A DNA stretch of 37,695 bases. It comes from Verrucomicrobiota bacterium JB024 (GTDB taxonomy: Bacteria; Verrucomicrobiota; Verrucomicrobiia; Opitutales; Cerasicoccaceae). A model generated the notes under the pieces. That model made no database searches. It saw nothing but the letters and a program-made list of their open reading frames with translations, and had not been told where the DNA came from. The stretch lies in assembly GCA_030673825.1 (NCBI GenBank), contig JAUTCS010000047.1, positions 1 through 37,695 of the forward strand, given 5' to 3'. This document shows positions 12,466 through 36,713 of this stretch, in pieces; the first letter of the stretch is position 1, and the number at the start of each line of letters is the position of its first letter. The position numbers were made by a program, and so were the translations under genes.

Positions 12466-12690
12466 CTCACACCAAGGCACCAAGCACACAAAGAGGTTAT
12501 ACCGTTTCGCAGGAGAAATGAGACTCTTGTTTTTATCCACAGATGACACAGATGGGCACAGATTGCTTTTCGTAAAATCATCCGCGTTTCATCCGCGTTC
12601 ATCCGTGGCTAAATAAAAAATCTCAACCCAAAGTAGAAACGGCCCGAGCTTCCCGCTCACTCTCTGTGTCCTCCGCGGGCTCCGTGTGAG
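12466..12690. repeat. Nested inverted repeats of the 9-nt-unit family
   Basis: This fills most of the 487-bp gap between the convergent genes hmuS and the PEP-CTERM gene. Outer arms are 12466-12495 (CACCAAG/CACAAAG units) and 12662-12690 (complementary GTGT/CTCCG units). Inner arms are 12535-12564 (CACAGAT units) and 12577-12613 (ATCCGCG/ATCCGTGG units ending in GGCTAA). Each arm has two or three short tandem units; the inner and outer pairs use different core words, and partner arms match each other. No gene is supported here. Confidence 0.75.
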
Positions 12691-16179: not shown

Positions 16180-16306
16180 TTGCCCGCGAAGTCACGCGAA
16201 GAAACCCCATGATACCGTTTCCTGTTTGGTTTGGGGAAATCCATTTAACCACGGATGGCCCGGATATGCCGATATCATCGGTGCCCTCCGTGCCATCCGT
16301 GGTTAA
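16180..16306. repeat. Two dispersed-repeat pieces: CGCGAAG arm and CACGGAT inverted pair
   Basis: 16180-16201 is a 22-nt copy of the CGCGAAG arm found at 23111 and 31160 (one mismatch). 16245-16306 is a compact inverted repeat: both ends read TTAACCACGGATGG inward, with degenerate second and third 9-nt units, and only 3 nt separate the arms. It lies between the convergent genes for the pseudopilin and glutamine synthetase. Confidence 0.75.
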
Positions 16307-18005: not shown

Positions 18006-18839
18006 ATGAGTGAACCGGACGAGACTTCACGGCCCCCCCAGGTAACCTGGTCGGGCATGACCCATCCCGGCCGGTTCCGCCAGAACAACGAGGACGCCTT
18101 TCTCGCCCTCACTGTGGACCCGCAGGAGATGCGCCTGCTGGGCAAGGACGGCTCGGCCCCCATGGACGGGTGCGACTTTATCTTCGCCGTCAGCGACGGG
18201 ATGGGCGGGGCCAACGCCGGGGAGTTCGCCAGCCGTATCGCGGTGGACCGCATCTCCCATACCCTGCCGCGTAGCTTCTGGCTCGGGGCGCAGGGCATGC
18301 GCCGGGGCGCGGGCGAGTGGCTGGACAACCTTTTTTCTGAAATCCACACCGAGATGGGCCGGATGGGGCGCTTTTACCCCGAATGCGCGGGCATGGGGGC
18401 GACCCTGAGCCTGTGCTGGTTCTCACCGGGGCGGATGAACTTCGCCCACATCGGCGACAGCCGTATCTACTACTGGCCCAAGGGTGGCGAGCTGCGCCAG
18501 ATCTCCGAAGACCACACCCACGTGGGCTGGCTCCTGCGCACCGGCCAGATCACCGAGAGCCAGGCGCGTTTCCACCCCGGCAAAAGCGGCCTTCAGCAGG
18601 TGCTCGGGGGCAACGTCCGTACCATCGACCCGCAGATCGGCGTGGTCGATGTTGAGCCGGGCGACCGCTTCGTGCTCACCACCGACGGGATCTCCGACGG
18701 GCTTTCCCGCCGGGGCATTCAGAGTGTGCTCGAAAAGCCTCCCCTGCCGGAAAAATCCGTCTCCCAGCGTCTGATCGACGAGTCCATGGGCAACCTCAGC
18801 CGCGACAACCTCACCGCCCTCGTCGTCGAGGTGGCGTGA
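18006..18839 (+). CDS. PP2C-family Ser/Thr protein phosphatase
   Basis: Mn/Mg-dependent phosphatase of 277 aa, the size of a bare PPM catalytic domain. Motifs in order: RFRQNNEDAF (D30), IFAVSDGMGGANAGEFAS (D64), GMGATLSLCW, NFAHIGDSRIYYW, QISEDHTHV, RFVLTTDGISDGLS and NLSRDNLTALVV, so all metal-binding aspartates are present. No membrane segment or extra sensor domain. It lies 20 bp after the kinase-like gene on the same strand, so the two are probably co-transcribed and may act on the same targets. A nested inverted repeat begins 10 bp after its stop. Confidence 0.94.
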   Translation: MSEPDETSRPPQVTWSGMTHPGRFRQNNEDAFLALTVDPQEMRLLGKDGSAPMDGCDFIFAVSDGMGGANAGEFASRIAVDRISHTLPRSFWLGAQGMRRGAGEWLDNLFSEIHTEMGRMGRFYPECAGMGATLSLCWFSPGRMNFAHIGDSRIYYWPKGGELRQISEDHTHVGWLLRTGQITESQARFHPGKSGLQQVLGGNVRTIDPQIGVVDVEPGDRFVLTTDGISDGLSRRGIQSVLEKPPLPEKSVSQRLIDESMGNLSRDNLTALVVEVA

Positions 18840-18849
18840 GGAGGGGGAA

Positions 18850-19032
18850 TTAACCACAGAGAGCACAGAGTCGTTGCTCCTGTGCCACACTCCTTCTTGC
18901 GGTTTTGATCATTCGATCTTTAACCACGGATAACACGGATGGCACAGATAAATATCTTCTATCCGAGCTATCCGTGTTATCCGTGGTTAAAAAAGCCTCT
19001 TATTCCCACTCCTCTGTGTCCTCTGTGGTTAA
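18850..19032. repeat. Nested inverted repeat: CACGGAT element inside CACAGAG element
   Basis: Outer arms 18850-18870 and 19012-19032 (19 of 21 positions complementary, CACAGAG units) enclose inner arms 18920-18949 and 18961-18990 (27 of 30, CACGGAT units). All four arms begin with TTAACCAC at their outer edge. The structure fills the space between the convergent PP2C and flavoprotein genes, and reads like one element inserted into another. Confidence 0.85.
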
Positions 19033-19038
19033 TTCCCC

Positions 19039-20415
19039 TCATCCCTCCAGCACGTCTTCGAGCGGGTAGGTCCAGATCTCGGAGAGGGTGGGGTGGTACC
19101 AGTGGGTTTTGAGCAGGTCGGCGGCGGTGGCTTTGAGGGCGATGCCGACCGCGAGGCTGTGGATGAGCTCGGAGCCGTCCTTGCCCACACACTCGGCCCC
19201 GAGGACGCGCCCGGTGCCCTTTTCGGCAAAAACTTTGACGTAGCCGTGCTTGGCCTCCATGAGGATGGACTTGCCGTGGTCATCGAAGGGGTAGTCCGCG
19301 CTGACGTAGTCGATGCCGCGGGCCTTGAGCTCCTTTTCGGGAATACCCGCGTAGGCGATCTGCGGGTCGGTGAAAACAATGGACACGAGCGCGTCGTAAT
19401 CCACCGGCTGGGCCGGGCGACCCGTGGCGTGACGGGCGGCCAATTCGCCCTGGAGGATGGCGACATGGACGATCTCGTACGGCCCGGCCACGTCCCCGGC
19501 GGCGTAAATCGCGGGGTTGCTCGTCTGCTGGAACTCGTCGGTGCGGATGTGCCCATCGGACAGCAACTCGACGCCCGCACGGTCGAGACAGAGGCCGCCG
19601 GTGGCGGGGCTGCGGCCCAGGGCGTTGAGCAGGTGGGCGGCTTCGCGAACCAGTGTTTTCCCCTCATGTTCGAAGCTCACGCGGAAGCCCTTGGCGGTGC
19701 GCTCGACTTGTTTTATGTGCGTGTCGGTGATCAACTCGATGCCTTCGCCACGGAAGACCTCCTCGATCACGGTCGCGGATTCGGGCGAGTGCTCTTTTAA
19801 AATGTGCGGGCTGCGCTGGATCTGGGTGACACGGCTACCGAGGCGGTGCAGGAGCTGCGCCAGCTCGCAAGCGACGACCCCGCCGCCGAGCACGATGACC
19901 GACTCGGGCAGGCGGTCGAGCTCCAGCACGTCGTCGCTGGTCCAGGGGGCGGACTCCTTCAGGCCGGGGACAGGCGGCCAGGAGACGACCGAGCCGGTCG
20001 CCACGAGAAAGGCGTCCGCCGTCAGCACGGTGCCGTCGTCGAGGGTGAGCTCGCGCGCGCCGCTGAAGCGCGCCCGGTGGCGGTAGAGCGTGAAGCGGTC
20101 CGAGGCGAGCTGCTCCTGCCGGTACTCGGCGAACTCCGCGATGGTGTCGAGCTTGCGCTTGTGCAGGCGGGGCATGTCGGCCTTGGCCACGGGGATGGTC
20201 AGGCCGAAGCGGTCGGCCAGCCGGGCCAGGTGCAGGACCTCGGCAGAGTAGATGAGGGTCTTCGAGGGCATGCACCCGCGCAGGATGCACAGGCCCCCGA
20301 GCGGGTCCCCGCCGTCAACAATGGCGACGCGCTCGCGGGTTTCTCGGGCGGTGCGGGCAGCGGCGTAACCGGCGCTGCCGCCCCCGATCACGATGAAGTC
20401 AAAATGTTCGGCCAT
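19039..20415 (-). CDS. Pyridine nucleotide-disulfide oxidoreductase, mercuric-reductase-like
   Basis: FAD- and NAD(P)H-dependent flavoprotein of 458 aa in the dihydrolipoamide dehydrogenase/MerA/glutathione reductase group. It shows an N-terminal FAD site VIGGGSAGYAAARTA (9-23), the redox-active pair C43-ILRG-C48 (CX4C) in GGLCILRGCMPSK, a second nucleotide site VIVLGGGVVACELAQLL, the FAD motif AIYAAGDVAG and the dimer-interface His-Glu pair in HWYHPTLSEIW. There is no N-terminal HMA domain and no C-terminal vicinal Cys pair, so a true mercuric reductase is unlikely. No pyruvate or glycine dehydrogenase genes are near, which argues against a dedicated E3. The substrate is unknown. Confidence 0.88.
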   Translation of the reverse strand: MAEHFDFIVIGGGSAGYAAARTARETRERVAIVDGGDPLGGLCILRGCMPSKTLIYSAEVLHLARLADRFGLTIPVAKADMPRLHKRKLDTIAEFAEYRQEQLASDRFTLYRHRARFSGARELTLDDGTVLTADAFLVATGSVVSWPPVPGLKESAPWTSDDVLELDRLPESVIVLGGGVVACELAQLLHRLGSRVTQIQRSPHILKEHSPESATVIEEVFRGEGIELITDTHIKQVERTAKGFRVSFEHEGKTLVREAAHLLNALGRSPATGGLCLDRAGVELLSDGHIRTDEFQQTSNPAIYAAGDVAGPYEIVHVAILQGELAARHATGRPAQPVDYDALVSIVFTDPQIAYAGIPEKELKARGIDYVSADYPFDDHGKSILMEAKHGYVKVFAEKGTGRVLGAECVGKDGSELIHSLAVGIALKATAADLLKTHWYHPTLSEIWTYPLEDVLEG

Positions 20416-23110: not shown

Positions 23111-23193
23111 TTGCCCGCGAAGCCACGCGAAGGTACACGAAGGCACAACCACCCTGAATAAACATCGCGTATCTTCGCGTGACTTCGCGGGAA
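23111..23193. repeat. Inverted repeat of the CGCGAAG type
   Basis: Arms 23111-23143 and 23165-23193 carry the units CCGCGAAG, CACGCGAAG and TACACGAAG (right arm TACGCGA), the same 9-nt period as the CACGGAT/CACAGAG elements but with another core. The first 22 nt recur exactly at 31160-31181. It fills the convergent junction between the lipoprotein and O-antigen ligase genes. Confidence 0.8.
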
Positions 23194-23224
23194 AAAAGAG
23201 ACGCCGGAGGCGGTCTCAACCTGC

Positions 23225-27485: not shown

Positions 27486-27543
27486 TTAACCGCAAAGACG
27501 CAAAGGAGGGAAATCTCTGTGCACTTTGTGACCTCTGTGGTTA
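27486..27543. repeat. Degenerate inverted repeat (GCAAAG/CACAGAG units)
   Basis: Left arm 27486-27506 (TTAACCGCAAAG then ACGCAAAGG) and right arm 27515-27543 (complement of TAACCACAGAG, CACAAAG, CACAGAG) form a 58-bp hairpin between two co-directional genes. The cores of the two arms differ, so the copy is worn. The following 100 bp up to the lyase start hold no recognisable signal. Confidence 0.65.
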
Positions 27544-31159: not shown

Positions 31160-31246
31160 TTGCCCGCGAAGCCACGCGAAGCAGGAAAGGGCAGAGCGGT
31201 CCATGTTTAATGAACCCTCTGTGCTCCCTGTGTCCTCTGTGGTTAA
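31160..31246. repeat. CGCGAAG arm next to a CACAGAG arm; overlaps the rsmA stop
   Basis: 31160-31181 is an exact copy of the 22-nt CGCGAAG arm at 23111. 31217-31246 is, on the minus strand, TTAACCACAGAG followed by CACAGGG and CACAGAG units. The partner arms of both are missing, so this may be two elements each reduced to one arm. The TTAA end of the CACAGAG arm provides the TAA stop of rsmA. Confidence 0.75.
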
Positions 31247-34580: not shown

Positions 34581-34714
34581 CACAGGGAAAAGGGTCGGGT
34601 GTCGGTGTCGGAAAGGTCAACCGGCGCGGGCCGGAGTGGAGAACGGGAAAGCCTTCGCGCTTGCCCCGGTTTTTTCAATGCCTAATCGCGCCCTGTAATC
34701 TAAATAATGGGATG

Positions 34715-34942
34715 AACCACAAAGGACACAGAGGGCACAAAGCGCTGTCGCTATCCGGTGATCGCCACCAAAAAAATGCGAGTATTATGGTGGAGCGAAT
34801 TCCCCATACGCTGATGGATAGCCCACCTTGAGCTATAAAAAATAATCGCCAGGCCCCGTTCGTCTTGACGCGCACCTGCGGAGAAGAGAAGGGCTCCCGT
34901 CAGCAGCGGCAGCGCTTTGTGCTCTTTGTGTCCTTTGTGGTT
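34715..34942. repeat. 228-bp MITE-like element with 38-bp terminal inverted repeats
   Basis: Arms 34715-34752 and 34905-34942 are complementary at 35 of 38 positions. Each arm has three 9-nt units (CCACAAAGG, ACACAGAGG, GCACAAAG on the left), followed by a shared CGCTG-n-CGCT extension. The 152-bp centre is not coding and includes an A-run and CCACC/GGTGG pair. It fills about half of the 448-bp gap between the divergent genes trpC and mazG. Nothing else is seen in 34584-34714. Confidence 0.85.
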
Positions 34943-34991
34943 AATGTGAAACTCTGGGCTTGCCGTTTTGCGTGGAAAGCGCCGGGAGGGG

Positions 34992-35739: not shown

Positions 35740-36469
35740 CAACCTCAAGCTGACCGAAGTCGAGACCTCGCAGGGCCCCGTGCTGGTTCCCTATGAGGTG
35801 CGCCGCCGCAAGGGCTCCCGCTACATCAAGCTCTCCATCGGCCTGCGTAACCACGCCGTCCTCTCCGTTCCCTGGCTCTGCCCCATGGCCGAGGCCATGG
35901 CCTTCCTGCGTTCGCAGGGCCCTTGGCTGGAGGAAAATTTTAAACAGAACCCCTCGCGCTGCTCGCTCACCCAGTACCTGGAGGCCAATCCGCGCCTCTA
36001 CGGCCTCGGCCACGTCCTGCGCCTGAGCCTGGAGCTGACCCGCGCCCGGCCCTTCTATATCTATGACACGCTCCGGGGCGAGGTCGAGATGCGCCTGCGG
36101 GCCGACGAGGACCGCGAGGTCGGGACCGTCGCCCTCGTGCGTGCCTTTGCCGCCGAGGTCGTGGAAAAGCGTACCCGCGAGCTCGCCGCCGAACACGGCC
36201 TCAAGATCGGGCGCGTCAGCGTGCGCGACCAGTCCAGCCGCTGGGGCTCATGCTCAAGCAGCCGTACGATTTCGCTGAACTGGCGGCTCGTCCTGCTGCG
36301 GCCCAATCTTCAGGACCACGTCATCCTGCACGAGCTGGCCCACCTCACGGAGATGAACCACAGCCCGCGCTTCTGGGCCCTGCTGCGCAGCTACGACCCG
36401 CGCACCGACCAGCACAACTCCCAGCTCAACCCCGCCGCCTCCCGCCTCATGCCCCTGGGCAGGGCATAG
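35723..36469 (+). CDS. YgjP/SprT-like zinc metallopeptidase (M48-type, DUF45)
   Basis: A 248-residue predicted metalloprotease. It shows the N-terminal RRRKGSRYIKLSI strand pattern of YgjP, the DQSSRWGSCSSSRTISLNWRL motif and the zinc site VILHELAHLTEMNHSPRFW (HExxH, then the distal H in NHSxxFW). In E. coli YgjP is a small DUF45 protein of uncertain substrate. Starts are non-ATG: GTG at 35723, overlapping the mazG stop by 17 bp, is the best; GTG 35780 is an alternative. The frame is open further back but inside mazG. Probably co-transcribed with mazG. Confidence 0.88.
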   Translation: MPLKADNLKLTEVETSQGPVLVPYEVRRRKGSRYIKLSIGLRNHAVLSVPWLCPMAEAMAFLRSQGPWLEENFKQNPSRCSLTQYLEANPRLYGLGHVLRLSLELTRARPFYIYDTLRGEVEMRLRADEDREVGTVALVRAFAAEVVEKRTRELAAEHGLKIGRVSVRDQSSRWGSCSSSRTISLNWRLVLLRPNLQDHVILHELAHLTEMNHSPRFWALLRSYDPRTDQHNSQLNPAASRLMPLGRA

Positions 36470-36500
36470 GCAGGGTCCGGCTGGACCAGCATTCACGGTT

Positions 36501-36570
36501 TTAACCACGGATGCCACGGATCGCACGGATGAGATCAAATATCCGAGTCATCTGTGTTATCCGTGGTTAA
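36501..36570. repeat. Compact CACGGAT inverted repeat
   Basis: Two 30-nt arms, 36501-36530 and 36541-36570, each begin TTAACCACGGAT at the outer edge with three 9-nt units and are separated by 10 nt (24 of 30 complementary). The right arm's third unit (CTCGGAT) matches the right arm at 18961, so copies share arm-specific differences. Confidence 0.85.
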
Positions 36571-36713
36571 ATCAATGATTTCCTATTTCTGGTAAGAACG
36601 AGGCCTATCACGAGCCCAGGCTTGAGTTTTCGGCGCGAGTGCGGCATAGAGGGCAGACTCTCTCCGGGCGGGGCAACTGCAGGTCTATTCAATTAGCCTA
36701 AGCTTTTGACCGC

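Follow-up and report, generated by a model that had tools for sequence, protein, structure and literature searches.

The window, by which we mean the whole 37,695-nt stretch analysed here (contig JAUTCS010000047.1 of Verrucomicrobiota bacterium JB024), contains a convergent gap between a PP2C-like phosphatase gene and a pyridine nucleotide-disulphide oxidoreductase gene that is wholly filled by two nested inverted repeats. The parts of this site and the other features of the window are as follows (coordinates, strand, description).

18006..18839, plus strand: left neighbour, PP2C-like phosphatase gene, ending 4 nt ahead of the outer arm
18844..18870, plus strand: left arm of the outer pair, AGAG type (GGGGAATTAACCACAGAGAGCACAGAG); the GxxExxY ORF L040 lies between arms of this type
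18871..18918, unstranded: left spacer of the outer element, homologous to the spacer of a second composite on contig C98 (score 47, best of 1000 shuffles 25)
18919..18950, plus strand: left arm of the inner pair, GGAT type; its three iterons (CACGGAT/CACGGAT/CACAGAT) have a 9-nt period
18951..18959, unstranded: inner hairpin loop, from arm pairing and RNA fold
18960..18991, minus strand: right inner arm, GGAT type
18992..19011, unstranded: spacer on the right of the outer element; alignable with contig C130 (no shuffle test), and with C98 only within the whole alignment
19012..19038, minus strand: right outer arm, AGAG type
19039..20415, minus strand: right neighbour, pyridine nucleotide-disulphide oxidoreductase gene, its end abutting the outer arm
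12466..12690, unstranded: degenerate second nested example, CTCACAC-type outer arms (12466-12496/12660-12690) around a GAT-type inner pair (12533-12564/12576-12612)
16245..16306, unstranded: single GGAT hairpin; a CGCGAAG arm at 16180-16201 has no partner
23111..23194, unstranded: single CGCGAAG hairpin
34712..34945, unstranded: element with CACAAAG arms
36500..36571, unstranded: single GGAT hairpin

The outer arms are 27 nt each with 93% complementarity and extend 6 nt beyond the start and end given in an earlier note on this DNA (GGGGAA/TTCCCC), while the inner arms are 32 nt each with 91% complementarity. The arm pairs score 44 (outer) and 49 (inner) against a best shuffled score of 22 in each case, with neither value reached in 2000 shuffles, so that the nested order proposed in the earlier note, with an AGAG core outside and a GGAT core inside, is present. 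Folded as RNA, the 199 nt give −99.2 kcal/mol (z −12.2 vs shuffles) with both the outer and the inner stems formed. Rfam returned a tRNA as its sole match over the window, and a simple consensus scan found neither terminator nor promoter at the nested site, the scan being limited to loops of 3–8 nt and hence blind to a loop of 9 nt. The same nesting had also been claimed for 12466-12690; the order of outer and inner arms there is indeed the same, but the example is degenerate, with shuffles reaching the outer score in 16 of 2000 cases and the inner score in 5 of 2000.

Arms of this kind belong to a family that is spread across the genome. Thirteen places in the window match the arm pattern with up to three mismatches, against 0.02 expected, and 111 places in the whole genome match it with up to two, against none for the pattern read backwards. 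A typical arm strings together about three iterons, CACGGAT or CACAGAG words repeated every 9 nt, with TTAACC...GGTTAA ends. Most GGAT hairpins are short, at about 70 nt, and AGAG pairs have longer spacers that differ from copy to copy (by eye). Two further places in the window, 27486-27543 and 31160-31246, hold mismatched pairs, with a left arm of CGCAAAG or CGCGAAG type opposite a right arm of AGAG type, as might result from recombination between two elements or from the loss of element halves.

That genes for GxxExxY and IVP proteins sit in repeats of this kind was a lead that we tested in the genome at hand. A profile search retrieved seven PDDEXK_3/GxxExxY ORFs (PF13366) and three IVP/S23p ORFs (PF05635), and all ten are flanked by inverted arms of the same design (flanks read by eye). 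The words of these arms include CACAGAG, CACGGAT, CGCAAAG, CGCGAAG and CACACAAAG, with other tandem words at the IVP ORFs. All seven GxxExxY ORFs lie above the Pfam cut-off and the three that were submitted also lie above that of TIGR04256; the NCBIfam names returned for six submitted proteins were GxxExxY (three) and four helix bundle protein (three). Two of the GxxExxY ORFs, L045 with GGAT arms and L040 with AGAG arms, are located between arms matching the ORF-less hairpins of the same genome. The IVP arms (L276-L304) often carry tandem heptamers such as AGGAGTC and AGAAGAC, a period different from that of GxxExxY arms, whose iterons measure 8 to 10 nt.

The GxxExxY protein is predicted to adopt a restriction-endonuclease-like fold. 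Its structure was modelled with confidence (pLDDT 89.7), and although a Foldseek search of the PDB found nothing at E 0.001 or below, its top hit (1.6e-3) was SSO0001, which we take to be a Cas4 protein. A second structural comparison likewise put SSO0001 on top, at Z 9.6 across 115 residues, though at an rmsd of 8.2. Behind it came restriction-endonuclease-like proteins, and Holliday-junction resolvases scored Z 5.8 to 7.4, where values under 8 may mean a common arrangement only. The D...[E/D]xK residues are kept in the expected stretch in all 116 proteins compared. A sequence search of the PDB gave no match for GxxExxY at E 0.1, and it matched IVP to 2gsc and 2rld.

We quantified how general the arms are by scoring the flanks of relatives elsewhere. 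Inverted arms scoring at least 26 were found at 61 of 75 GxxExxY loci, compared to 4 of 397 pseudo-ORF positions within the same loci, leaving 14 loci at which clear arms were missing. These loci are the best 80 of 584 confirmed relatives, minus five with short flanks, and lean to L040-like proteins because only the best 80 were taken; the pattern used to search for the relatives itself held the GxxExxY motif. Judged from record titles, they cover Bacteroidetes, Cyanobacteria, Anaerolineae, Planctomycetes, Acidobacteria, Proteobacteria, methanogens and others. In the phylum of the window, 29 of 30 L045-like (GGAT-subfamily) loci had arms at a score of 28 (control 0/180) and likewise at 26 (control 3/180); the window genome’s own locus is among the 30, which makes 28 of 29 further loci. 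For IVP loci in the order of the window, arms were found at 21 of 29 at a score of 28 (control 1/159) and 23 of 29 at 26 (control 2/159), clear arms thus missing from 8 of 29. Both sets, the 30 L045-like and the 29 IVP loci, comprise the search matches for which loci were extracted. Control positions with arms accordingly amount to 0–1% at thresholds of 26 (GxxExxY) and 28 (L045-like, IVP). Another control, in which the left flank of one locus was paired with the right flank of another, gave a median score of 18 against 37 observed, with a 99th percentile of 42 and a maximum of 57, so that only 25 of the 75 GxxExxY loci exceed the cross-pair 99th percentile and 5 its maximum; flanks of different loci match each other because the arms share a consensus.

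The word in the arm varies with the protein between the arms. Among 80 L040-like loci, 37 had GAG, 29 AAG and only one GAT (66 xAG vs 1 GAT), with seven mixed and six without a word, whereas the 29 L045-like loci had 24 GAT and no GAG or AAG, with two mixed and three without. The sole GAT exception in the L040-like set, L166, has GAT-word hairpins beside its ORF. On a tree of 116 proteins, the distinction between GAT and xAG required two changes, compared to at least 19 in 200 shuffles, over 97 labelled rows; the test left out the 19 proteins lacking one clear word, including one mixed case among the genome’s own seven. GAG and AAG were sorted less sharply on the tree, needing 14 changes where shuffles averaged 23.5 with a minimum of 16. 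The arm word is thus linked to the protein subfamily, from which we infer that the protein recognises the word, although the linkage could instead reflect common descent of the whole element. Since the arm word tracks the protein subfamily, the outer (AGAG) and inner (GGAT) hairpins of the nested site represent two element subfamilies, which bears out the suggestion that the two cores belong to different elements.

Nesting of this kind recurs. An outer pair scoring at least 26 surrounds 5 of 26 GGAT hairpins, these 26 being mostly among the genome matches listed: the case in the window and those on contigs C98, C4, C119 and C124, the last with an inner hairpin that is only half present. Three further cases seen by eye (C75, C10 and C102) score 19 to 24, under the threshold. 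The corresponding frequency was 9 of 1000 at random window positions (Fisher p 1e-5) and 43 of 650 for cross-paired flanks of the 26 hairpins; as the random positions include genes, part of the enrichment may reflect a shared intergenic preference. The outer types around GGAT hairpins comprise AGAG, CACAAAG (C4) and CGCGAAG (C119). One nested unit, moreover, was apparently copied whole, as judged by sequence comparison: the composite on contig C98, in reverse orientation, can be aligned for some 177 nt, a stretch that takes in the left spacer with the score listed above. The right spacer alone gave no signal against C98 (697 of 1000 shuffles reach its score), and the flanks outside the C98 composite scored 22 each, which we took as chance without a shuffle of their own. 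Contig C130 carries only the inner hairpin, the right spacer and the right outer arm.

Comparison of orthologous sites points to mobility. The nested site itself offers no such comparison, with the PP2C and oxidoreductase genes lying apart in 9 of 9 same-family genomes examined and the contig holding the PP2C gene in G003 ending about 107 nt past that gene. Three other window sites are without the element in at least one syntenic genome of the same genus (by eye), namely 34712-34945 (in G001 and G002), 23111-23194 (in G001) and 36500-36571 (in G001), while remnants with other words were seen by eye at the first of these in G003 and at the second in G002. In another genus, g54 (13 genomes searched, 12 matched, junction viewed in 9), a single junction occurs in at least four states: a GAT element with an ORF in G223, the ORF being found also in G350 and G348; in G347, an ORF-less GAT hairpin at the place where the ORF-bearing element lies in G223 and G350; GAG hairpins in G211, G345 and G352; and no arms in the viewed parts of G353 and G354. 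For G353 and G348 the viewed parts are the two ends of a long junction, and for G354 only the right flank was aligned. Neither a target-site duplication nor a base-exact empty site was found, the intergenic DNA of relatives being too diverged or holding another element; the TTAA at both inner ends may be part of the arm or a duplication.

The hairpin in G347 (locus L321, about 2330-2440) is likely a direct case of a small element formed by internal deletion. In G005 (L107, 1044-1485), a GxxExxY gene whose protein is 52% identical lies directly downstream of the orthologue of the window oxidoreductase, with arm-like CAGCAAAG repeats alongside, i.e., the same intergenic region with another element type.

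We consider it very likely that an ORF-less, MITE-like element with CACAGAG arms makes up the site and was invaded by an ORF-less element with CACGGAT arms. Both would be non-autonomous and belong to a single superfamily of small mobile elements. The proposal of the earlier note that one element entered another, and is therefore mobile, is supported by the occurrence of the inner and outer types each alone elsewhere in the genome, by GGAT hairpins lying within other outer types, and by the variable sites described above. Fuller members of the superfamily have terminal iteron arms with a word specific to the element and a single small ORF, either GxxExxY or four-helix-bundle IVP/S23p. The GxxExxY nuclease would recognise and cleave the iteron arms, perhaps when these are extruded as a hairpin. 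ORF-less GGAT hairpins would then be moved in trans by a GGAT-type enzyme, here that on contig C132, and AGAG hairpins by an AGAG-type enzyme on contig C119 and perhaps C114. After nesting, the composite was apparently moved or copied once as a unit, giving rise to the copy on C98.

A different route for such movement is suggested by the intervening sequences (IVS) of 23S rRNA. Passages of PMC4990558 describe these in Coxiella, Leptospira and others as having terminal repeats of ~28 bp, tandem heptamers and a single S23p (PF05635) ORF, and as being viewed as selfish; the Coxiella IVS has an S23p ORF, a 28-bp terminal inverted repeat and tandem heptamers GACAGAT, and is excised by RNase III. 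The elements here differ in that they are intergenic between protein genes and outside rRNA, are multi-copy with many arm words, and have numerous relatives with GxxExxY in place of S23p; the copies in the window are ORF-less, with an S23p/IVP ORF in fuller relatives elsewhere only. Because the Coxiella IVS has the same plan, an RNA step remains a live rival, in which transcribed double-stranded arms would be excised, in the way that RNase III excises rRNA IVS, and the RNA copied back into DNA. IVP (PF05635) also resembles the retroelement protein Avd, according to passages of PMC10053308, and a reverse transcriptase match above the cut-off was found in two of seven element-bearing genomes (G002 and G003). 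However, G001, G223, G211 and G347 had no reverse transcriptase match and G000 only one below the cut-off, and GxxExxY is predicted to be restriction-endonuclease-like, which together leave this route unlikely.

Less probable still is that the outer and inner stems form one functional double stem (a cruciform or RNA structure), which would for instance terminate or protect the convergent transcripts. Such a structure would suit the very stable fold, the complete filling of the convergent gap and the second copy with its homologous left spacer, but the inner and outer hairpins are separate elsewhere, where they occur with other partners and spacers, the C130 copy has only the inner hairpin and the right outer arm, and no terminator-like site appeared in the consensus scan, with the restriction on loop length given above. 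The designed double stem, which had been raised as an alternative to insertion, is therefore not needed to explain the site, though the composite was apparently copied once as a unit. That a RAYT (Y1 tyrosine transposase) moves these hairpins as REP/REPIN palindromes is most improbable: they are likewise short intergenic palindromes of high copy number, the genome has four Y1_Tnp matches (three above the cut-off) and passages of PMC3733652 report GTAG repeats in Verrucomicrobia too, but no GTAG or CGTC tag was seen by eye in 18844-19038, the four Y1_Tnp loci (1.9–3.3 kb) are without TTAACC-type arms at up to four mismatches, even if a RAYT may act at a distance, and what the relatives encode between their arms is GxxExxY or IVP rather than Y1.

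Invasion of one small mobile element by another thus remains our preferred reading, and among known classes the elements resemble MITEs, which are short, ORF-less, multi-copy and intergenic, have terminal inverted repeats, insert into one another and have a fuller, ORF-bearing relative. The elements described here share all of these features, the window copies being short, multi-copy and ORF-less between terminal inverted repeats; they differ from MITEs in that they are without a known transposase, the partner ORF is of PDDEXK type, the arms are iteron arrays and no target duplication was found. The fuller elements have an ORF that belongs to the GxxExxY family (TIGR04256/PDDEXK_3, PF13366), whose printed model descriptions cover the protein only, without arms or words. 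We know of no established function for GxxExxY and four-helix-bundle (IVP) genes, which occur in many bacteria and some archaea. Within the titles, abstract openings and viewed passages of the open-licence PMC papers that the searches listed, no published description of GxxExxY elements or of such arms was found.

More tentatively, and with somewhat less than even confidence, we suggest that GxxExxY proteins are the site-specific nucleases of very widespread, undescribed mini-transposons, in which a small Cas4-like nuclease would read about three iterons per hairpin arm. IVP/S23p elements, including the rRNA intervening sequences, would form a second, parallel line in which a four-helix-bundle protein takes the place of the nuclease, and nested composites would be one route to new elements. 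A regular place inside iteron arms, with a word tied to the subfamily, offers these proteins a concrete and testable role as element-encoded proteins; the element reading would also account for a class of hairpins between genes and connect the puzzling intervening sequences of rRNA with relatives located elsewhere than in rRNA.

The search of mobile replicons returned a GxxExxY relative in eight plasmid records and three relatives on viral contigs, the composite DNA itself being without a match in the plasmid records. At L166, L198 and L256 there is apparently a whole hairpin, not a single arm, on each side of the GxxExxY ORF, an arrangement that resembles an ORF set between two complete small elements. 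Gene order also shifts at element sites: the adjacency across 18840-19038 was not seen in the nine same-family genomes, and at about 36460-36700 the gene order shared with G002 is lost close to the GGAT hairpin at 36500.
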